Shown here: piece by piece, positions 4,160-13,117 of the stretch
How the letters are laid out: every line of letters begins with the position of its first letter
Position numbering within the stretch: the first letter of the stretch is position 1
Assembly: GCF_016405885.1 (NCBI RefSeq)
Contig: NZ_JAEKGC010000005.1
Coordinates: 186,001 to 250,000, forward strand
DNA length: 64,000 nt
Origin: Arthrobacter sp. MSA 4-2
GTDB taxonomy: Bacteria; Actinomycetota; Actinomycetes; Actinomycetales; Micrococcaceae
Direction of reading: 5' to 3'
Notes under the pieces: generated by a model
Seen by the model: the letters and a program-made list of their open reading frames with translations, nothing else
Databases searched by the model: none
What the model was told of the DNA's origin: nothing
Translations under genes and position numbers: made by a program

Positions 4160-4702
4160 ATGAAAAACTCAATCGCCCTTACCGCTGCTCTATTGCTCGG
4201 AATCGGCCTGTCGGCCTGCAATGGTGCGGAGCCCACAGAATCACCCGGGGGCGTGCCTTCTGCGACCCAGGACGCAATTGGGGAAGCCCCCGCCAGTCAG
4301 AGTGCGGCGTTCGGCGACACCGTGACCTTCGAGGGGGACGTGGAGGTGACCGTCGAATCCCGAGGCTTCCAGTCCGCTTCCGGCAGTGCACCTGGTGCGG
4401 TTGAAGGCCGGTATGCGGTCTTTGAGATCACGGTGGTCAACAACGGACAGGAAGAAGTGGACGGCGGCCTGATGAACCTGCCCACGGTCCGCGCCGGCGA
4501 CGCCGGGACAGCGGTTCAGCCGGTGGTTGATTCGGACACCGGCATCGGCGGGGAGCTCCTTTCGACGATTCCACCCGGCGACACCCAAACGGCCCAGTTT
4601 GCCTACGGCATCGCCGCTGCCGATGCAGACATCATCCAGATGGAGATCGCGGATCCAACCGGAACCGGCGAGGACGCGATCTACCAGGGCGCCATCGAGT
4701 AG
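4160..4702 (+). CDS. Secreted lipoprotein with DUF4352-like domain
   Basis: This 180-residue exported lipoprotein has a typical signal peptide (residues 1-20, MKNSIALTAALLLGIGLSAC) ending in the lipobox LSAC, so Cys20 should be lipidated and the protein anchored outside the membrane. A low-complexity linker follows, then from about residue 50 a beta-rich domain with GRYAVFEITVVNNGQEEV and an IPPGDTQTAQFAYG segment, the pattern of DUF4352/Ig-like extracytoplasmic domains. Their role is not known; adhesion or immunoprotective functions are only suggested. GGAGGA sits just upstream of the ATG at 4160. It stands alone and converges on the sucrase/ferredoxin-like gene 40 bases downstream. Confidence 0.8.
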   Translation: MKNSIALTAALLLGIGLSACNGAEPTESPGGVPSATQDAIGEAPASQSAAFGDTVTFEGDVEVTVESRGFQSASGSAPGAVEGRYAVFEITVVNNGQEEVDGGLMNLPTVRAGDAGTAVQPVVDSDTGIGGELLSTIPPGDTQTAQFAYGIAAADADIIQMEIADPTGTGEDAIYQGAIE

Positions 4703-4742
4703 GAGCCTGAAGCTTCCGCCCGGTGGAAGAAGGGCCGAAGCT

Positions 4743-5639
4743 TCACTCTGCAGTGATCGAAACGGTTTCGTACACGATGACCGAGCCCGGCGCCGGTGCG
4801 CGGCAGGTCAACTGTTCCGGCGGGGCGCGGTAAGTCCGCAGTTCGACGTCGATCTGTGCGGGGTGGGGCGGGGGAGCGGTGAGGCGGATCCGCCAGCGGT
4901 CACCGTGGCGGGTGGTCCCGGCGACCGCATAGTCCAGCCGTCCCGCCGGACCGAAGCGTTCGAGCGCGGCAGCGACAGCGGCCTGTTGTGGTTGGAGGAG
5001 GTCGGTGTAGCCGCGCAGATGCTCCGCGTGGATGGAGTCGGCGAGGTGCCCTTCGACCGTGGCCACTGACGATGCGGCATCGAGGCCGCCGTAGTAGACG
5101 CCGTCGGGCGCGATGACGACGTTGGCCGCGAACCGGTCACCGCCGACGTGCGAGCATTCCCACACCAGCTCCGGCCAGCGCTCCTCCAGGGCACGTCCCA
5201 CGGGCCGTCCGCGGACCGCGCAGCAGGTGTCATGCAGGCCGTGGGCGCAGACGAGGAGGACCGGCGGGTGGCCGAGTTCGCCCGGTCTGCTGAGGGCCGC
5301 GGCAATCTCCGCCAGGTCTTCTTCCTGCGTCCACGACCCCCAAAGCTGCCGATGGGCACCGGACCCGTCATGGCGCAGGACGGCCCATCGCTGAGGTCCT
5401 TCGCGCCGCCGGCGGCCGTGCCGCCGCACCAGCAGCACCCGTGCCCGCGCGGCCTGGGCGGCGGCGATCACGAGGGCTTTCGTGTCGGGCTCAAGAGCGA
5501 GGCCGTCGAAGCTGTTGAACGGCCACCTGCCGCGGTATTCAATGAGGACCCAGACGACGTCGTTCGGCGCTGTGCCGGCCATCGAGTCGCCGCGCACCCG
5601 GGCACTGCTGGCGCAGAAAAAGCGTTCCGGAGCGGTCAC
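4743..5639 (-). CDS. Sucrase/ferredoxin-like family protein
   Basis: This roughly 298-residue protein matches the sucrase/ferredoxin-like family, a thioredoxin-fold group thought to bind an iron-sulfur cluster; despite the name, sucrase activity is not established. Family marks are an N-terminal Cys in RFFCASSARVRGD followed by MAGTAP and WVLIEYRGRW, and the central LLVCAHGLHDTCCAVRGRP with three cysteines. I place the start at GTG 5639, 8 bases past the upstream cupin stop; an ATG at 5702 would overlap the cupin gene by 56 bases and add atypical residues. It is third in an operon with the cupin dioxygenase and the GGAD-repeat protein, so it may be a redox partner (inference). Confidence 0.8.
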   Translation of the reverse strand: MTAPERFFCASSARVRGDSMAGTAPNDVVWVLIEYRGRWPFNSFDGLALEPDTKALVIAAAQAARARVLLVRRHGRRRREGPQRWAVLRHDGSGAHRQLWGSWTQEEDLAEIAAALSRPGELGHPPVLLVCAHGLHDTCCAVRGRPVGRALEERWPELVWECSHVGGDRFAANVVIAPDGVYYGGLDAASSVATVEGHLADSIHAEHLRGYTDLLQPQQAAVAAALERFGPAGRLDYAVAGTTRHGDRWRIRLTAPPPHPAQIDVELRTYRAPPEQLTCRAPAPGSVIVYETVSITAE

Positions 5640-5646
5640 CGCGGTG

Positions 5647-6840
5647 TCACGGATCCGCGGGAACGAGGACCCCGGCGCGCAGCAGCCTCCCGACCAGTTC
5701 ACCGCCCAGATCGTTCGCGGTGTGAGTCCCGCCGTCGAGCAGTCGCTCCACGGACGGCAGGTCGGTCGCGGGGAAATCGAGCCAGCCCACCCGGGTGCTC
5801 AGGCGCGATCCTTCCAGCCGTGCGTCAAGCGCACCACGCAGCTGCACTCTGGAGTCGGGGCGGAGGCCTTCGACGGCCGCGAGCTGAGCAAGCGGTCCCA
5901 GCGGGGCCGGGCGCCCCTGTCCCCGCCGGGTGCGGTGGAACAAGGGAGCGGAATCGGCTTCGGCGACGGCGGCGGCCAGGCGTTTCCGGACGACGTCGAC
6001 CTCCCCGGCCGGTCCGTCGACGCCCAGGGGAAGCGTCCGGCGCATCTCGGGATCGTCGCGGAGCAGCGCAAGCGCGGCCTGGGCGAGCTGTTCTGCCAAG
6101 GCGTAGCGGGTCCAGCTGTGGATGCCGAGCGTGAGGTGGATGGAGACCTCGCCCTGCGCCTGAGCGGCGTGCAGCCACCCGCGCGGCAGGTAGAGGACAT
6201 CGCCCGGCTCGAGCAGGGTGTCGATGTAGGCCTCGCCTTTCGCGGCGTCGGCGACTTCGGAGCGGCGGTCGGTCCACACCTGATCACGCAACGGATCGGG
6301 GAGGACCGGCTGGTGGATGATCCAGCGCTTGGTCCCCTCGATCTGCAGGACGAAGACGTCATGGACGTCGTAGTGATCGTCGAACCCGCGGTTCTGGGGC
6401 GGTGTGATGTAGGCGTTGGCCTGCACCGGATGTCCGAGCTCTGTACTCAGTTGCGCGTTGAACTCCTCGATGGGTTCCCAGGTACGGTGCAACGCCTGCA
6501 GGACCAGGGTGGCGCCGTCGGCGAACTTTCGCCAGAGGGCTGTGTCGTCGAGTTGGTCGGAGATGGTGGCGCCGACGCCGGCCGGGGCGGTGAAGGATGA
6601 GTCGGGGAAGGTCGTGCCCTCCTTGGCGACGCGGAGGAAGGGCGTGCGCAGGCCGCGGCGGGAGATTAGTTCGTCGACGGCGTCGGCTGAGAACAGGTCG
6701 GAGAAGTCGCCCGCGCCGCGCGTGAGCAACGCCGTCCGTCCCCAGACCTCGCGGGCGAATTTCTCGCGGTCGATGTCGATCAGGCGTGTCTCCAGAACCC
6801 CAGCGCCGGGACGCGTGGGCTCGTTAGGAGGAGCGCTCAA
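5647..6840 (-). CDS. JmjC/cupin-4 family 2-oxoglutarate-dependent oxygenase
   Basis: This 397-residue protein belongs to the cupin-4/JmjC group that includes the ribosomal-protein hydroxylase YcfD/RoxA. Such enzymes use Fe(II), O2 and 2-oxoglutarate to hydroxylate amino-acid side chains. The iron triad is visible as H156-Y-D158 in FDDHYDVHDVF and a distal His224 in LPRGWLHAA; QIEGTKRWIIH carries the conserved Gln and Lys-Trp of the barrel. The C-terminal region (about 250-397) is the helical/winged extension usual in the group. It starts 2 bases after the GGAD-repeat gene stop and runs into the sucrase/ferredoxin-like gene, so the three are one transcript. The substrate is unknown; the Asp-rich repeat protein next door is an obvious candidate (inference). 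Confidence 0.85.
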   Translation of the reverse strand: MSAPPNEPTRPGAGVLETRLIDIDREKFAREVWGRTALLTRGAGDFSDLFSADAVDELISRRGLRTPFLRVAKEGTTFPDSSFTAPAGVGATISDQLDDTALWRKFADGATLVLQALHRTWEPIEEFNAQLSTELGHPVQANAYITPPQNRGFDDHYDVHDVFVLQIEGTKRWIIHQPVLPDPLRDQVWTDRRSEVADAAKGEAYIDTLLEPGDVLYLPRGWLHAAQAQGEVSIHLTLGIHSWTRYALAEQLAQAALALLRDDPEMRRTLPLGVDGPAGEVDVVRKRLAAAVAEADSAPLFHRTRRGQGRPAPLGPLAQLAAVEGLRPDSRVQLRGALDARLEGSRLSTRVGWLDFPATDLPSVERLLDGGTHTANDLGGELVGRLLRAGVLVPADP

Positions 6841-6842
6841 GC

Positions 6843-7121
6843 TCAGATGCCCGCTCCGGCGTCGGCGCCGCCATCGGCACCGCCGTCTGCGCCTCCATCT
6901 GCGCCGCCGTCGGCACCCCCGTCAGCGCCGCCATCGGCTCCGCTATCTGCGCCTCCGTCTGCGCCCCCGTCAGCGCCGCCATCTGCGCCTCCGTCGGCAC
7001 CCCCGTCTGCTCCGCCGTCTGCGCCTCCGGTACCTCCGCCGTCTAGAACACTCGGCACACCGGTCGTGTCACCGCCCGCCGCGATTTCCTGCTCGTTGGG
7101 ATCCTGCTGTGGTTCAGTCAT
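6843..7121 (-). CDS. GGAD-repeat small protein (BatC-like)
   Basis: This 92-residue protein has a short acidic leader (MTEPQQDPNEQEIAAGGDTT, then GVPSVLDGGGT) followed by 14 near-perfect tetrapeptide repeats: seven GGAD, one SGAD, six GGAD, and the end AGAGI. It has no signal peptide, no membrane segment and almost no hydrophobic residues. Similar GGAD/GGTD proteins are sometimes annotated BatC with no known role. It is first gene of an operon with a JmjC-type oxygenase 2 bases downstream and a sucrase/ferredoxin-like protein after that. A ribosome-binding site AGGAGG lies upstream (7127-7132 on the complement). The regular spacing of Asp could bind metal or act as a hydroxylation substrate; both are inference. 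The repeat is coded by a 12-base tandem array. Confidence 0.75.
   Translation of the reverse strand: MTEPQQDPNEQEIAAGGDTTGVPSVLDGGGTGGADGGADGGADGGADGGADGGADGGADSGADGGADGGADGGADGGADGGADGGADAGAGI
6859..7037. repeat. 12-base tandem minisatellite inside the GGAD gene
   Basis: About fourteen imperfect copies of a 12-base unit (for example cgccgccatcgg, cgcctccatctg) code for the GGAD repeats. Third-position differences between copies show the array is not a recent perfect expansion, but copy-number change by slippage stays in frame and is likely to vary between strains. Confidence 0.9.
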
Positions 7122-7316
7122 ATTTCCTCCTGAGAGTCGAATACTCCTCGTACCTGATCACCCCACCGGGCGGTGCATGACGCTGAGATCACCCTATCGG
7201 CACAGATCAGCCGAGGGAACAGCCCGCAGATTCTCACTCACCAGGAATGGAAGTGCAGGAGGGGGAACCCGGACAGGGCGGGGCGTAGGGTGGAAGTCGG
7301 ACGAAAGGAGCACTTC

Positions 7317-8093
7317 ATGAAGAAAATCCTCATGGTACTGACCAGCGTTTCCGAGATCGGCGACACCGGGGAGAAGACCGGCTACAACGTGGCCGAAGCT
7401 GCACACCCCTGGAAGGTCTTCAAGGATTCCGGGCATTTCGTCGACTTTGCCTCAATTCAGGGCGGCCAGCCTCCGCGCGACGAGGTAGACAAGGATGATC
7501 CCATCCAGGTCGCTTTCACGGAGGATGAGACCACGCGTGCCGGGCTCTACAACACGGCCCGCGTCGATGTCGTCAATGCCGACCAGTACGACGGCGTCTA
7601 CCTCGTCGGAGGCCACGGCACCATGTGGGACTTCCCGGACAGCGAAGGCCTGCAGAACCTGGTGGCCAGCGTCTACAACGCCGGCGGCGTGGTGGGAGCG
7701 GTCTGCCATGGACCGGCCGGCCTGGTGAACGTGGAACTGGAGAACGGGTTCCGTCTCGTCGAGGGGCGGAGGGTTGCGGCCTTCACCAATGAGGAGGAGG
7801 TCGCCGCAGGGAAGGACAAGGTCATCCCATTCTTCCTGGCCGACCGGCTTGAGGAACAGGGCGCCACCCACGTTTCCGCCGATGTTTTCGAGGAGAAGGT
7901 CGTGGTCGACGAGCGGCTGGTGACCGGGCAGAACCCGGCCTCGGCCGCCGGCGTGGCCAAGGAGATGGAGAAGCTCCTAGCAGAGGTCATCCATCAGGAG
8001 AAGGCCGAGGAGCAGCACGAGGCGGCGGCTCTGCGTGCCGAGAAGGACGCGGAGAAAGAGGCCAAGAAGGCTGACGCAGCAGCGGAGCACTAG
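7317..8093 (+). CDS. DJ-1/PfpI (Hsp31-like) family protein with charged C-terminal tail
   Basis: This 258-residue protein is a type 1 glutamine-amidotransferase-like, DJ-1/PfpI superfamily member. The nucleophile elbow is VGAVCHGPAGL with Cys130 and His131, and the acidic partner region is near SVSEIGDTGEKTGYNVAE; GVYLVGGHGTMWDFP is the conserved loop of the Hsp31-like branch. Relatives are glyoxalases/deglycases or holding chaperones; which applies here is open. The start is the ATG at 7317, preceded by AAAGGAG. Residues from about 220 to the end are an unusual Lys/Glu/Ala-rich, probably helical extension beyond the usual family length. A GC-rich hairpin follows. It stands alone, upstream of the accessory island. 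Confidence 0.85.
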   Translation: MKKILMVLTSVSEIGDTGEKTGYNVAEAAHPWKVFKDSGHFVDFASIQGGQPPRDEVDKDDPIQVAFTEDETTRAGLYNTARVDVVNADQYDGVYLVGGHGTMWDFPDSEGLQNLVASVYNAGGVVGAVCHGPAGLVNVELENGFRLVEGRRVAAFTNEEEVAAGKDKVIPFFLADRLEEQGATHVSADVFEEKVVVDERLVTGQNPASAAGVAKEMEKLLAEVIHQEKAEEQHEAAALRAEKDAEKEAKKADAAAEH

Positions 8094-8133
8094 GCCTACA
8101 GCGCACCAACGCCTGCAGAGCACGGAAACCGGC

Positions 8134-8157
8134 GGCCGCCCCGAGAACGGGGCGGCC
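8134..8157 (+). terminator. Hairpin after the DJ-1/PfpI gene
   Basis: A perfect inverted repeat (GGCCGCCCCG-agaa-CGGGGCGGCC) lies 40 bases after the stop. It lacks a clear T-run, so it may slow rather than fully end transcription. Confidence 0.6.
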
Positions 8158-8222
8158 TCTAGGTGGCGTCCATGCGCTTGTGAGTCGAAGTCGTCGTGAA
8201 ACGTAGCGCCCATGCAGGGATT

Positions 8223-8811
8223 CTGTCCGTGTACGAGCAATTGTGCGAAGGTGAGCTGGTTCGCCGTCTCGAGGTCGCCCGCTGGGGGCTGGTCCCAGTA
8301 TGGTCTAAGGACTCGAACGCTGGCGCCAAAATGATTAACGCCGGCAGTGGGACGGTGACGGAGAAGCTGTCATTTCGAACAGCGGCCGATTATTGCTGCG
8401 CCCGATCCGCGAACGGATATCACGAGTGGCAGAAGAACGAGTACGGGGTCGAAGACCCCGTACTCCCTTCAAGGCCAGGCGGAGGACGAGGACCAGTTGC
8501 TGGGTCTTCCCCGGCTCGTACGAGTTCTGGCCCGACCCTACGAAGGATAAGGATAAGGATAAGAGGCTGGTGACCACGAGAACCCTCACCAGGGGCCGCA
8601 CCTGACGGACTTTGCTAGACCCACGATCGGACACCGTTGATCGTGCTGAAGGACCTGCAGGATCAGTTGCTCGACGCGACGATGGCGGAGCGGGACCTGG
8701 CCTAGCATCTCATCGATACAATTTCGCACCCAGCCTCGTGCCGGGAATCGTTGGAAAAGTGGTTGGATCAGTCCGTAGACCGTCCTCGCCTGATCGAGCC
8801 GATCGAACGGT
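8223..8811 (+). pseudogene. Decayed SRAP (SOS response-associated peptidase, YedK/HMCES) gene
   Basis: SRAP proteins crosslink to abasic sites in single-stranded DNA through a Cys at position 2. Here the frame from about 8223 reads VYEQLCEGELVRRLEVARWG then LVPVWSKD, MINAGSGTVTEKLSFR and ANGYHEWQK, a clear match to the family centre. After a frameshift between about 8450 and 8497 a second frame reads FPGSYEFWPDPTKDKD and LVTTRTLT. A third shift gives DRTPLIVLKDLQDQLLDATM, an in-frame TAG at about 8703, then HLIDTI and, in changing frames, VGKVVGSVR and LIEPIE. The N-terminal MCGR motif with the catalytic Cys is missing. The gene is therefore a truncated, multiply frameshifted relic. It marks the left edge of the island, 9 bases from the TIR gene stop. 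Confidence 0.8.
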
Positions 8812-8819
8812 GAACGTCG

Positions 8820-9236
8820 CTACTTTGCGTTTTTACCTAGGGTCATTGCTTGATCAATGGCCGCGCCAATGAGCGGCCAAGACCAGTCCATGGTTCGGTT
8901 GCGCTGCAGACCAGTGGGGAGAGTTGAGGAGGCATTGGCTCCGTCGACGTAAACACCGAACACTGGCACGTCAGCCCTGATAGCCATGGCAATCTCTTTT
9001 ACGACGCCTGTGGCCGTACCCATGGACTTGCCAACCAGAACGATCAGCATGTTCGTTGCGCTGATCTTCTGAGCAATCAGTGCTTCCCATTCAGCCTCCG
9101 GAAGCGCGGACTTGCTTGACCAGTCTTGGAGGGTGAAGGGGGTTGGGGAGTCATTCTTTGCTTGACCCGCGAACAGGATCTTCGGAACTAGATCGTGATC
9201 GAAGTCAAAACTCAAGAAAGCGCGGGGATCTGCCAT
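8820..9236 (-). CDS. TIR-like (ThsB-type) domain protein, distal
   Basis: This 138-residue protein has the single-domain TIR-like fold of Thoeris ThsB proteins (DUF1863-like). Visible elements are RAFLSFDFDHD at the N-terminus, PFTLQDWSSKS, EWEALIAQKISATNMLIVLV, and GVVKEIAMAIRADVPVFGVY, where Glu81 is the likely catalytic Glu of NAD-cleaving TIR domains. The start is ATG 9236, supported by AAAGGAG at good spacing; an upstream in-frame start at 9308 has no such signal. It lies 375 bases downstream of the Mrr-like gene, a gap long enough for its own promoter. Known ThsB proteins sense phage and make a cyclic ADP-ribose isomer; this role is inferred. Its base composition is AT-richer than core genes (50% GC in 8821-8880). 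Confidence 0.8.
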   Translation of the reverse strand: MADPRAFLSFDFDHDLVPKILFAGQAKNDSPTPFTLQDWSSKSALPEAEWEALIAQKISATNMLIVLVGKSMGTATGVVKEIAMAIRADVPVFGVYVDGANASSTLPTGLQRNRTMDWSWPLIGAAIDQAMTLGKNAK

Positions 9237-9611
9237 GACGTTTCTCCTTTGTAGATGGACCAATTCTATGCGCTGGTCCTGACAGTTTCCGTCGGGGGTC
9301 AGCAACATGGCTGATCTGGGCCGTAATGGCTTCAGGGATATGGCGGCTCACTATTTCATCCTGGATTTCTACTCAAGACATGCATTATTTCGCAACGCGG
9401 AGCAAAATATGACTCAAGCCGATGTCGCTAAGTGTCTCTCCTAAACCTGGACCAGCGATTGTGCAAAAGCACAGAATCCGCGCAAGGGCAACTCATCGCA
9501 GTGCTGGATGTATGAGTGCTCTCACGGTAATCTATCTAGCCGTTGTTGCAAGCTTGTCGTTGGTCTTTGATAGTTTTTATCTTTGCGCTCGGTTAACGGG
9601 ATTTCGCTCGC
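9237..9611. other. 375-base intergenic region between Mrr-like and distal TIR genes
   Basis: No convincing gene is seen. The plus-strand frame 9422-9778 has no family likeness and runs into the Mrr-like coding region on the other strand. The stretch is AT-rich (45% GC in 9541-9600), consistent with imported DNA and with a promoter for the distal TIR gene, though no clear -35/-10 pair was found. Confidence 0.5.
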
Positions 9612-10274
9612 TCAACCGTCTGTCTGCGGTTCTTCAAGGGTGCTGCGAAGTTGGCCGGCAGATGCGCTCTGTGTTCCTGAGACAAGAATCTTGGTTAGGT
9701 AGCTGGGGTACTCCTGGCTCGCGATGCTTACATTGGTCGCTCCGGTCTCCGGGTTCGCTGTGTAGATATGCCCAGTGAACTCAGGGAATCCCATTGCGCG
9801 TGCAAGCTCACGGGTTAGGGGAGGGGGCTTTGTGATGGACCGCGTCACGTAGGTGTACCGTCCCTCGGTCACCACTACAAGAGCGATGCTGTGAATTTTT
9901 GCGTAGTCTAGCGCTCCTCGCTGGAACGGCGCGGTCGAGAAGATGACACCCTTGTGTGATCCAGTGCTCAGAATTTTCTGGTGGAGAATCTGCACGATGT
10001 CCCGCTTGATTGGATGCGAGTGACGCTTCGCTTCGACGAGGACACGAAATTTCATGCCGCCGCTTTCAAAGGTCATGGTGCCGTCCATGTCATATGAGCC
10101 GTCGACGCCTTGAAGTACGTCGTGCAAGGTGACTTCGACGTTGTCGAGTTCCTTGTGGACACTTCGAAGGGTCTCTACGACGTACTCTTCGAACTCAGCG
10201 GCGGTAATGTCTGCCGCCGGGTATCGCAGCATTTCGAATGCTGGTGCGTCCTCGGCGTGTCGCTCATTGTTCAT
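9612..10274 (-). CDS. Mrr-like restriction endonuclease-fold protein
   Basis: This 220-residue protein resembles the Mrr/PD-(D/E)XK nuclease fold. The likely active site is Asp62 or Asp64 in SYDMDGTMTF, and Glu81-Ala-Lys83 in RVLVEAKRH. KGVIFSTAPFQRGALDYAKI matches the Mrr strand-helix that follows the active site. No methyltransferase or DNA-recognition partner is nearby, and no N-terminal winged-helix domain is evident. The start is ATG 10274; the frame continues upstream but without a ribosome-binding site, while a purine-rich GAGAGGGA precedes 10274. It lies 54 bases after the SLOG gene on the same strand, so it probably belongs to the same defence transcript. It could be a DNA-cleaving effector or an accessory module (inference). 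Confidence 0.7.
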   Translation of the reverse strand: MNNERHAEDAPAFEMLRYPAADITAAEFEEYVVETLRSVHKELDNVEVTLHDVLQGVDGSYDMDGTMTFESGGMKFRVLVEAKRHSHPIKRDIVQILHQKILSTGSHKGVIFSTAPFQRGALDYAKIHSIALVVVTEGRYTYVTRSITKPPPLTRELARAMGFPEFTGHIYTANPETGATNVSIASQEYPSYLTKILVSGTQSASAGQLRSTLEEPQTDG

Positions 10275-10328
10275 TTTCCCTCTCGGATGAGGCCCTACAG
10301 GCGGCCGCATGATGAATTGTCTATAGTT

Positions 10329-10805
10329 TTAGTCGCGGGTTACGCCTGGAGGCCAGATAATATGGACGGGCTTGCCGTTCTTTCGGGCGTGATCGACAGC
10401 ATCCGCGGTGCCTCCCTGTCCTTTGGCGCCTTTTCCGTCCCACACGGCGACCATGACGTCACACATCTCAGCAACTCGGCGCCCTGCCGCATCGAAGGCG
10501 TCCTCGGCGGGTTGGTCGTAGTTGAGCACGTCGACCTCAGTCGCCCGGCTCTTAAGATCGAAGTAGTGGGGGCGATCCTGCTCGGAGAAGGTTCTTTCGT
10601 ATCCGACGGAGGGAATGACGGCATGTAATGTGCCGCCTGTTGAGAGGAGCTCGTCGGCGAATAGCTGGTCTGCTCCAACTGCAAGGCTGCTTAGGCCGAT
10701 TAGGGGTGGGTCTTGATGCGCCAAAAATTCCCGGAGGCGTTCTGTAACGTACGCGCGAGCTTCGTTCGGCATGGACTGGTGGCCCGTGATTCCTACGATA
10801 GTCAT
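10329..10805 (-). CDS. SLOG-family nucleotide-binding protein
   Basis: This 158-residue Rossmann-like protein carries SLOG (Smf/DprA-LOG) marks: an N-terminal MTIVGITGHQ, the central GLSSLAVGADQLFADELL, and CDVMVAVWDGKGAKGQGGTA near the end. SLOG domains bind nucleotide-derived ligands; in type I Thoeris ThsA a SLOG domain binds the cyclic ADP-ribose isomer made by ThsB. Here it is a separate protein. Its ATG at 10805 overlaps the caspase stop in an ATGA arrangement, so the two are translationally coupled. The upstream in-frame ATG at 10862 lies deep in the caspase gene and is not preferred. Its role as receptor or processing enzyme of the signal is inference. Confidence 0.8.
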   Translation of the reverse strand: MTIVGITGHQSMPNEARAYVTERLREFLAHQDPPLIGLSSLAVGADQLFADELLSTGGTLHAVIPSVGYERTFSEQDRPHYFDLKSRATEVDVLNYDQPAEDAFDAAGRRVAEMCDVMVAVWDGKGAKGQGGTADAVDHARKNGKPVHIIWPPGVTRD

Positions 10806-11761
10806 ATGCGGCCCGCCGTGACCTGGCGCCAATAGTGCTTGCCGAGTGCTGTGAGTCGGCACCCTTTAGAGTGCATAGCGGCGAAGTACAGGTGTTCCTC
10901 ATCGATCGGCTCGATGAGCCGGCATGAGCGGAACTTCTGCAGCCCAGAGAAAACGTGTTCGTTTTCAGGGTGGTTAGGTTCCGCTGTCGGTTCGAATGAC
11001 GGGTCCAGGGCGAAGTCGTAGTCCGTGGCGGGGAACCACTCGGTAAGTTTCCGCAGGGTCTCGAGTGGAACGCGCGGGTCGCACTTACGGATGTCCTGAA
11101 GCCGATCAATGTTCGCTTTGAAGGTTGGTCGTTGTTCCCAAGGGCCAAAGGATTCTGAGAGGTACGCGTATAAGCCGGAGACGTTGACGTGACCTAAGAC
11201 GTCGGCAGCACCTGCGTCGAGTGCGCCCTCGAGGTACGTGGAGAACTGCCCCCGACCATGGATCGTTTCCATTGAAACCTGGTCGTTGCGGCTTGCGGTC
11301 AGCACCGAGAGACCCGGGCGAAGGTTAGCAAGTTGGTTCCCTAGAGCACCGATAGTTGTCGCTCCACCGGAGAAACAGCAGTCTAGGATCACAACGACTT
11401 CGTTGACAGGGCTGCTGTTGATGACTGTGAGAATCTCGGAGAACAACACGCCAGGAGTGGTTGTGGTCCCATTGGATGCTACGAGGGAGACGTCGCCGTT
11501 GACGGGCGCCCCATGACCGGCGAAGTAGAACAATGCGAAGGTGCCGCCGGGGCCGAGCAGTTCATGGATTTGCTCCAGAAGTGCATCTCGGGAAATCGGC
11601 TTGCGGGCGTCGCGAGCAGTGAGGGTGCGGCAGTCGAAGTTAGGGCTGTTGTCTTCGTTGCGGGCAAGTAGGGGTTCGAGGGCCTCGGCGTCGTTCGCGC
11701 ATCCGCCAAGATTGTTGAATGAGGTGTAGGAATCAATGCCGACTAGCAGGGCTCGTTTCAT
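10802..11761 (-). CDS. Caspase-like (peptidase C14) effector protein
   Basis: The 319-residue protein has an N-terminal caspase/metacaspase p20 domain. It begins MKRALLVGIDSYTSFNNLGG with CANDAEAL, carries the catalytic His83 in LFYFAGHGAP and the catalytic Cys129 in VVVILDCCFSGG, both at standard spacing. Cleavage preference cannot be read. The C-terminal part (about 200-319, including EWFPATDYDFALDPS and CRLTALGKHYWRQV) is an extra region not needed for catalysis and may sense a ligand or partner. ATG 11761 overlaps the TIR stop, and its own stop overlaps the SLOG start, both as ATGA. Bacterial caspase-like proteases in defence islands cause cell death, and one class is activated by TIR-made N7-cADPR (type IV Thoeris); assignment here is inference. 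Confidence 0.85.
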   Translation of the reverse strand: MKRALLVGIDSYTSFNNLGGCANDAEALEPLLARNEDNSPNFDCRTLTARDARKPISRDALLEQIHELLGPGGTFALFYFAGHGAPVNGDVSLVASNGTTTTPGVLFSEILTVINSSPVNEVVVILDCCFSGGATTIGALGNQLANLRPGLSVLTASRNDQVSMETIHGRGQFSTYLEGALDAGAADVLGHVNVSGLYAYLSESFGPWEQRPTFKANIDRLQDIRKCDPRVPLETLRKLTEWFPATDYDFALDPSFEPTAEPNHPENEHVFSGLQKFRSCRLIEPIDEEHLYFAAMHSKGCRLTALGKHYWRQVTAGRI

Positions 11762-12150
11762 CGGTTGCTGCCCTGCAGTGCGTCGATAAAGTCAGCGATT
11801 CCAGCCCAGGTCCATACTTTGCAGGGTGAGGAGCCCATTTCCCTTGGTTTCGTCCTGTAGCCGTCTTCGATCCAGATACCGAGGACGGGAACTCCCTCCT
11901 CGATGGCACAAGAGATCTCCCAGAGCTGACCTGTGGCCGCTGGGGTGTTGCTACTGATTAGCGCGATGACCCCATGGGAGCGGCGAATTCTCGTTCGGAC
12001 CTTCTCCTTCCAAGCGGAGGAGTAGGGCTCTTTGACTGACATATCGGTGAACTCGAACGGGGTCGAGGGGTTAACTCGCTGCCCAGTGAACAGGTTGCGG
12101 GTGGATTCGTCCTCTTTTGCGAAGGCGATGAAGACAACTTTGGTGGCCAT
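11758..12150 (-). CDS. TIR-like (ThsB-type) domain protein, promoter-proximal
   Basis: This 130-residue single-domain protein starts VVFIAFAKEDESTRNLFTGQ, continues PFEFTDMSVKEPYSSAWKEK, then HGVIALISSNT and GQLWEISCAIEEGVPVLGIW. Glu78 in QLWEIS is the likely catalytic Glu of a TIR NAD hydrolase/cyclase. It is the first gene of the leftward operon; its ATG is preceded by AGAAGGA at 8-base spacing, and its stop overlaps the caspase start. Known ThsB relatives are activated by phage proteins and convert NAD to a cyclic ADP-ribose isomer. Sequence identity with the distal TIR protein is low, so this is not a recent duplication. The signal made and the trigger are unknown. Confidence 0.82.
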   Translation of the reverse strand: MATKVVFIAFAKEDESTRNLFTGQRVNPSTPFEFTDMSVKEPYSSAWKEKVRTRIRRSHGVIALISSNTPAATGQLWEISCAIEEGVPVLGIWIEDGYRTKPREMGSSPCKVWTWAGIADFIDALQGSNR

Positions 12151-13027
12151 GAACTAAATCCTTCTATGATCGCTGAAATGACTTCTACGACGAAGCCTAA
12201 GTGTCAACACGGACATAATTGTACTTATGGTGTTGGTGTTGTCCGAATAGCATTCATTCGGAGTTTGACGATCCTGCGCATCGAGCAGGAAAGGATGAGT
12301 CGCCGAATCAACTTCCTCACTGGCAACCGTGACTCCATTGCCGCCTACCTCAAGGTTGCTAACTCCGCGCTCGAACGCCACACCGCTGGAATGCTGGAGT
12401 CGATGGCGGAGATACATTGGTATTGGAGCGACAGATTGAACGTTCAGCCGCCTGAGGGTGAGAGGGAAAGCCCCGGACTTTGGGGGACATATCTGCACGT
12501 CGTCGACATCGCGCCCGTTAGCCGGCTGATACTCTGCGGGGTCCGGTTTGAAGGTTCCCCAGGCTGGATCGGTCGATCGAGTCCTGTTCAGTCATCGTGG
12601 GTGGTGGCAGGGGGCGTGCGCAGGAAATCCCCAGCCCGGAGGACAGCATGTCCCGACGGCACCCGCCGCATTCGTTTCGCAGGGCCGCTTCCCGCGGGTT
12701 GTGACTACGGTGCGGTGGTGGTGGCGCCAGGTATCCAGCGGCCTGGGTCGTGCACGGGCGTCTCCGGCCTCGACCGGTAAGCGATGCTCACTCCGTCTTA
12801 GATCCGGCGTCCAGTGCGTGTTGTGCTGCTCGGCTACCGAAAGTTGGATCTATACGAGGGAGCTGACCCTGGAGCGGACAGCTTGAATACGCCCCCCGGG
12901 TCCACCTCCTGACCTGGTGGAAGAGTGTTGCGCGAAAAGTTCTCTCAGTTCCTCGCCAATGGAACATACCGGACAAAACGAAGGCCCCCACTTCCCTGCG
13001 ACATCGGGGAGTAGGGGCCTTCGGTAG
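12151..13027. other. Gene-poor right part of the accessory island
   Basis: This 877-base stretch separates the defence operon from tRNA-Ser. It should contain the operon promoter: on the minus strand a TACAAT (12218-12223) and a TTGACA (12202-12207) are visible but not at mutually correct spacing. A plus-strand frame 12166-12780 (204 codons) contains segments that look protein-like (MSRRINFLTGNRDSIAAYLK, HTAGMLESMAEIHWYWSDRL) but has no recognised family and turns low-complexity after about codon 125. I treat it as a doubtful or broken gene. No integrase, transposase or repeated tRNA end was found. Confidence 0.5.
12975..13022 (-). terminator. Terminator of tRNA-Ser(CGA)
   Basis: On the minus strand an imperfect hairpin with arms GAAGGCCCCTACTCCC and GGGAAGTGGGGGCCTTC is followed by CGTTTTG, directly downstream of the tRNA. 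Confidence 0.8.
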
Positions 13028-13117
13028 TGGCGGTGACGGTGGGATTTGAACCCACGTTGGCTTTTACACCAAACAACATTTCGAGTGTTGCACCTTCGGC
13101 CGCTCGGACACGTCACC
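13028..13117 (-). tRNA. tRNA-Ser (anticodon CGA)
   Basis: The minus strand folds into a class II tRNA: acceptor GGTGACG pairs with CGTCACC, anticodon stem-loop CAACA-CTCGAAA-TGTTG gives CGA, a long variable arm follows, and the T-loop is TTCAAAT. Discriminator G and an encoded CCA end the gene. It sits at the right edge of the accessory island with its 3' end facing the island. Confidence 0.95.

Follow-up and report, generated by a model that had tools for sequence, protein, structure and literature searches.

Do the five leftward genes at positions 8820-12150 of this 64,000-nucleotide stretch of Arthrobacter sp. MSA 4-2 (hereafter the window) make up one defence system, and what does the least familiar of their products, a SLOG protein, do beside a caspase-like protease? 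The initial annotation had read the set as a single cassette encoding a TIR protein, a caspase-like protease, a SLOG protein, an Mrr-like nuclease and a second TIR protein. All five genes are real and are confirmed on the minus strand, with the transcription order TIR-a, caspase, SLOG, Mrr-like, TIR-b. We read the locus as type IV Thoeris in a variant form, not as a five-gene system, and SLOG is its unfamiliar part. The features are as follows.

11758..12150, minus strand: TIR-a, a ThsB-family TIR protein of 130 residues, first gene of the coupled operon and presumed signal maker (Pfam ThsB_TIR 7.1e-9)
10802..11761, minus strand: caspase-like protease of 319 residues with His83/Cys129, presumed effector (Pfam Peptidase_C14 1.5e-11; PADLOC caspase 5.9e-19)
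10329..10805, minus strand: SLOG protein, a single domain of 158 residues, third gene, presumed regulatory subunit of the caspase that binds an ADP-ribose (ADPR) ligand
9612..10274, minus strand: Mrr-like PD-(D/E)XK protein, probably outside the conserved system (Pfam Mrr_cat 2.6e-11)
8820..9236, minus strand: TIR-b, a second ThsB-family TIR protein of 138 residues, presumed alternative sensor for the same caspase (Pfam ThsB_TIR 3.3e-6)

Two junctions, TIR-a/caspase and caspase/SLOG, are each formed by a 4-bp ATGA overlap, read directly from the sequence. The Mrr-like gene starts about 54 bp after SLOG, and TIR-b follows another 375 bp on.

A SLOG protein that follows the caspase

SLOG is predicted by its model to have the Rossmann-like fold of the SLOG superfamily. 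The best matches of the model are YpsA and DprA, with a weaker match to the SLOG of ThsA that binds cyclic ADPR (cADPR); DprA matches as well as ShosA does. A single-sequence search of solved structures with SLOG gave matches at chance level only. The motif of the LOG phosphoribohydrolases, PGGxGTxxE, is not kept, and in the alignment, judged by eye, GxGGTxD stands at that site, which sets the protein apart from those enzymes. Type I Thoeris consists of a ThsB TIR protein and the SIR2-SLOG protein ThsA, and in other systems the SLOG fold reads NAD-derived alarm molecules. Our locus shares with it a ThsB-type TIR and a SLOG of the fold that reads cADPR isomers, but here SLOG stands alone and its closest solved folds are YpsA and DprA, not ThsA. 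Assignment to type I was rejected, as a SIR2 match (Pfam) was present in none of the five proteins (0/5) and SLOG is a single domain.

Among 295 genomes of the family SLOG is present in one, that of the window; the TIR-caspase-SLOG locus therefore looks like a recent acquisition, and recurrence was examined in other families. Genome loci came from a collection with one genome per species, and the best 80 of 513 confirmed caspase relatives were kept, because of which they lean towards the window's own kind. SLOG adjoins the homologous caspase in 11 of these 80 loci and in four of the first eight plasmid loci. Caspase homologues at a coverage of at least 80% occur in 42 plasmid records (best 60 of 71 matching records), and SLOG lies beside the caspase in eight of the 42, near-copies included (four of the eight are from Agrobacterium), with adjacency read by eye from the record coordinates. 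On one of the eight, a Methylorubrum plasmid, SLOG is upstream of the caspase with a TIR gene in between. Where SLOG is directly downstream, the 4-bp overlap with the caspase gene recurs in 10 of 14 loci. The co-occurrence that the initial annotation had proposed as a check thus holds for the TIR, caspase and SLOG genes, which are found together in other genomes.

The distribution of SLOG follows the phylogeny of the caspase. In a caspase tree of 89 rows (caspase trees here were built by a quick method, with no bootstrap), SLOG is present in 15 of the 24 rows of one lineage, compared with 1 of 65 elsewhere; the clade that holds the window has it in 11 of its 12 rows. Five changes are needed to explain SLOG presence on this tree, against a mean of 15.0 under shuffled labels (0/500 as low). 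A single SLOG clade within the caspase family is rejected by the approximately unbiased test (p 0.0006; 15 of 16 SLOG rows, with locus L009 left out), and there has therefore been more than one gain or loss. In a sample of 396 genomes of the phylum, drawn independently of SLOG, the gene next to the six full-length caspases is SLOG in four (window included), RyR in one and neither in one. The cut-offs for these counts (a bit score over 120 for a strong SLOG, over 300 for a full-length caspase) were set after the tables had been seen, and weaker rows were left out along with genome G681, in which the caspase is broken across two frames.

Divergence gives the same picture. Pairwise distances of caspase and SLOG correlate with r 0.78 (16 pairs; permutation p 0.0002). 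In 12 of these loci the caspase-TIR distances give r 0.31 (p 0.028) and the SLOG-TIR distances r 0.34, compared with 0.78 for caspase-SLOG, though the TIR distances include two subtypes, which widens their spread. SLOG is tied more closely to the caspase than to the TIR. Four loci from Frankia, Pseudofrankia and Dactylosporangium (L019-L022) carry the caspase-SLOG pair and no detected ThsB-type TIR. The upstream gene in L020 has CATRA-N, CATRA-C and EAD1 (Pfam), and the downstream gene in L021 has a CATASP match below cut-off; L019 was judged by eye to be like these two (L019-L021, around 4200-7935).

The caspase is not the sole companion of this SLOG. It lies beside four of the ten strong SLOG matches in the 396-genome sample, and in eight of 40 SLOG-bearing plasmid records; this SLOG subfamily therefore has other partners too. 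Members stand beside an 8xMP (PF24838) membrane protein in a Streptomyces locus (L011, 3407-4501) and in L153 (4001-5473), the latter with a TIR of the TIR-b type, and in L189 the SLOG match falls at the beginning of a protein annotated as DUF4231, with a TIR protein after it. As at our locus, the SLOG subfamily adjoins a putative effector or is joined to one, and L153 and L189 have a TIR gene close by; the difference is that this putative effector is a membrane protein and not a protease. The TIR-b type is also paired with an 8xMP protein in L152 (5001-5878), and TIR-b type plus 8xMP has the look of a further Thoeris-like pair, in which the effector would be a membrane protein. A lead that would have placed the 8xMP-TIR pairs in a "type III Thoeris" found support in no paper in our search.

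The TIR-caspase core

The Thoeris-like TIR/caspase pair named by the initial annotation is borne out by the domain matches, as both TIR proteins exceed the Pfam ThsB_TIR cut-off and the protease matches Peptidase_C14 and the PADLOC caspase model; TIR-a keeps the conserved Glu. His83 and Cys129 are invariant in 38 of the 38 caspases aligned, so the proposed catalytic residues are kept. A profile search of solved structures with the caspase returned metacaspases and MALT1 only, among the 20 matches listed, and a single-sequence search of solved structures returned no caspase relative.

Homologous pairs are found elsewhere. In all of the first eight plasmid loci opened (8/8), a ThsB-type TIR adjoins a full-length caspase homologue. 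Compared with the TIR that precedes the caspase, TIR-a has 47-54% identity in four of them (Shewanella, Sinorhizobium, Rhizobium ruizarguesonis and Agrobacterium) and 31-37% in the remaining four. A ThsB-type TIR (E 1e-3 or better, anywhere in the locus) is present in 66 of the 80 genome loci. TIR-b shares 63-65% identity with caspase-adjoining TIRs on Proteus, Plesiomonas and Providencia plasmids and 62-65% with TIRs downstream of caspase-SLOG in L014 and L015. By eye, the TIR before caspase-SLOG resembles the TIR-b type in L093 (G530) and is of the TIR-a type in L094 (G428). By sequence comparison, TIR-a and TIR-b are both members of the TIR family that accompanies this caspase in other loci, and the claim of a second TIR is sustained. 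A second TIR is a recurrent but minority feature of caspase loci, because six of the 80 (L024, L039, L042, L066, L067 and L078) have a pair of ThsB-type TIRs close to the caspase, both of them strong matches (E under 1e-20). A different second TIR of about 160 residues lies downstream of the caspase or SLOG in L008 (5439-5948), L009 (5011-5487) and L010 (4945-5421; Pfam TIR_2), with similar ones by eye in L065, L073, L082 and L091. DUF6338 membrane proteins recur beside TIR-caspase loci (L005, 2728-3312; L013, 7421-8071; L152, 3929-4657; L160, 358-1032).

Type IV Thoeris, reportedly described by Rousset et al. in 2025, consists of a TIR protein and a caspase-like protease. Our locus shares with it the two genes in one operon, the kept catalytic residues and a wide spread of homologous pairs, and its core is very probably type IV Thoeris-like. 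In the published system, as given in the available text of PMC12847820, the TIR makes N7-cADPR, which switches on a caspase-like protease, and this protease breaks down cell proteins; an excerpt of PMC13373217 places CapK/CapS regulators before 12 type IV Thoeris operons. The likeness is drawn through such descriptions in citing papers. What our locus adds is the coupled SLOG and a second TIR, and its caspase sits in a separate lineage within the family sampled here. A TIR, a separate SLOG and a protease, together with a nuclease and a second TIR, had been put forward as a combination without a known described precedent. That SLOG is a recurrent partner supports this in part, whereas TIR plus caspase alone is, by the published descriptions available, the make-up of type IV Thoeris. 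In searches of open-licence PubMed Central, no title, opening of an abstract or passage among the matches listed describes SLOG or RyR as a gene of TIR-caspase operons.

What the third gene may do

The slot after the caspase is filled differently in other loci. In L152 (Paenarthrobacter plasmid pYJN5-2, 3280-3564) and L006 (Rhizobium ruizarguesonis, 4972-5241) the next gene encodes a protein of about 90 residues with a weak Pfam RyR match, below cut-off in both (0.0022 and 0.00032, respectively). A search with this mini-protein matched 21 plasmid records; the RyR gene is within 300 bp of the caspase in 19 (one upstream) and 3 kb away on the same plasmid in one, and the last has no caspase among the matches listed. 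Five further loci were opened, and all five have the order TIR-caspase-RyR (5/5). Examples of this order are Paenarthrobacter L152, Pseudarthrobacter L162 and Citrobacter L164; L160-L164 as a whole and L116 have the RyR mini-protein right behind the TIR-caspase pair. Across the 42 caspase plasmid records RyR lies alongside in 19, SLOG in eight and both in none; the 19 contain four Rhizobium and two Sphingomonas records of equal match score. A search of the 80 genome caspase loci with the RyR model found the mini-protein in none. The TIR and caspase families and the place of the small third gene are the same as at our locus. The third protein is different, and the RyR-bearing caspases form a clade of their own (8/9 rows, support 94).

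In the accessible text of a preprint (PMC13232231), phage RyR-domain proteins cleave or sequester 2'/3'cADPR; their ligand residues are two histidines, an aspartate and a tryptophan that lies three residues after the first histidine, and bacterial members of the family are noted; a text search found neither "type IV" nor "SLOG" in it. By eye, the RyR mini-proteins keep H-x-x-W and the Asp in a late SD motif, and the second histidine is apparently not kept. They are candidate host counterparts of the phage RyDEP proteins. RyR in the same slot links the host side to the recently reported phage proteins of this family, which destroy or sequester cADPR signals; it also hints at a source from which phages could have picked up such a domain.

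We know of no answer to how the cell-killing caspase of type IV Thoeris is kept quiet before a true signal comes. A third gene that recurs and whose fold is tied to ADPR ligands is a specific candidate for this control, and the two-gene definition of type IV Thoeris may miss a regulator in part of the family. We put forward, tentatively and at somewhat short of even chances, that type IV Thoeris has an unrecognised third slot directly after the caspase, taken by SLOG or by a host RyR protein (unrelated folds, never both in the records seen), whose product would be a dedicated ligand-handling subunit that times the firing of the caspase. If so, phage RyR evasion proteins and host RyR regulators would be two sides of one conflict, and SLOG would be a movable regulator common to protease and membrane effectors.

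For the locus itself, we lean slightly towards a type IV Thoeris-like abortive-infection operon to which a SLOG subunit, linked to lineage, has been added and in which either of two TIRs can serve as the input. Upon phage infection, TIR-a or TIR-b would convert NAD+ to a cADPR isomer, presumably N7-cADPR here; the ligand would switch the caspase on, cell proteins would be degraded and phage growth would be stopped. The TIRs may be exchangeable input modules, with caspase and SLOG as the steadier unit. Translational coupling would have SLOG made in step with the caspase, and SLOG could bind that ADPR ligand, or one related to it, and, in contact with the caspase, set the caspase's threshold or ligand specificity. 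That SLOG is a ligand-binding regulatory subunit of the caspase we regard as an evenly balanced proposition. In the SLOG lineage the caspase retains 56 of the positions conserved across 64 canonical caspases, spread over both halves of the protein, and SLOG therefore need not replace the caspase's own sensing. A further 17 positions conserved in the canonical caspases are altered, 15 of them before residue 222.

An unlikely but serious alternative makes SLOG an off-switch, which would hydrolyse or soak up TIR-made cADPR and so curb leaky or prolonged activation of the caspase, as a host counterpart of phage RyR and sponge proteins. This account sits poorly with the replacement of the LOG motif noted above by GxGGTxD (by eye), with SLOG divergence that tracks the caspase and not the TIR, and with the retention of SLOG in loci that gave no ThsB-type TIR match. 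It draws strength from the cleavage or sequestration of 2'/3'cADPR by phage RyR proteins (PMC13232231, accessible text) and from LOG-clade SLOGs, which are N-glycosidases, with degradation of cADPR by viral SLOGs proposed in the available part of PMC9503650. The presence of an RyR-domain protein in the same slot in another clade and the conserved positions that the caspase mostly retains fit it also.

Improbable, in our judgement, is that SLOG serves as a brake of the antitoxin kind, which would keep the caspase off with no need of a ligand, in the manner of ShosA. ShosA is a DprA-like antitoxin, and the model of SLOG matches DprA and ShosA equally, which does not single out the latter. Against a brake, SLOG is missing from 69 of the 80 caspase genome loci, and a search of the 80 with the RyR model had no match either. 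SLOG also stands beside unrelated putative effectors near TIR genes, which ligand sensing fits better. Finally, that defence genes gathered by chance in a tRNA hotspot, with SLOG and caspase functionally unlinked, would agree with a variable island beside a tRNA gene and with one of the five genes (Mrr-like) that seems unlinked, but it is largely refuted for SLOG and most improbable, as SLOG-caspase adjacency recurs across many genera with gene overlap and co-divergence.

The Mrr-like gene and the island

The cassette does not survive as a five-gene unit. It was rejected because relatives of the Mrr-like nuclease were found in none of 88 caspase loci (phmmer; tblastn with E up to 1, the window locus as positive control), some of which end at contig ends. 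Such relatives are few: two of 72,556 plasmid records and seven of 296 phylum genomes, the window's own included. In the one relative locus opened, on a Pseudomonas syringae plasmid (L154), no TIR or caspase is annotated within 4 kb. The Mrr-like gene is probably an island neighbour that lies outside the conserved system. Bacteria do have nucleases that are activated by caspases, and the Canu nucleases have an MBL fold with a partner caspase that has an Ig-like fold (PMC12799240, text in part). A nuclease gene after a caspase gene is common to Canu and this locus, as far as that text describes Canu; here the nuclease is Mrr_cat, no Ig-like domain was matched in the caspase (Pfam), and the pairing is not conserved. 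A working link between caspase and nuclease at this locus, for which the same strand and the short spacing of about 54 bp would speak, is very improbable.

The AT-richer DNA described for this locus is confirmed, with 53-59% G+C in the 9-13 kb bins against 62-74% from 13 kb on. One further feature borders the island.

13028..13117, minus strand: tRNA-Ser(CGA), at the border of the variable island (ARAGORN)

The flanks were searched for in 25 genomes of the genus sample, with distances worked out by eye. Eleven other genomes have both matching flanks on one contig within 14 kb, and the spacing runs from about 0.1 kb (G689, G695 and G248) to 13.8 kb (G203), with 4.9 kb in the window; because it differs between genomes, this is a variable island adjoining the tRNA gene. 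The hotspot spans 8100-13028 of the window, beside tRNA-Ser(CGA). A scan for promoters and terminators gave matches no more numerous than in shuffles. At the island edge lies a fragment of an SRAP (SOS-response-associated peptidase) gene (8196-8573, plus strand; SRAP 2.2e-14, profile positions 50-114 of 214), and an open reading frame at 6843-7121 (minus strand) contains a long, low-complexity run of GGAD-like repeats.

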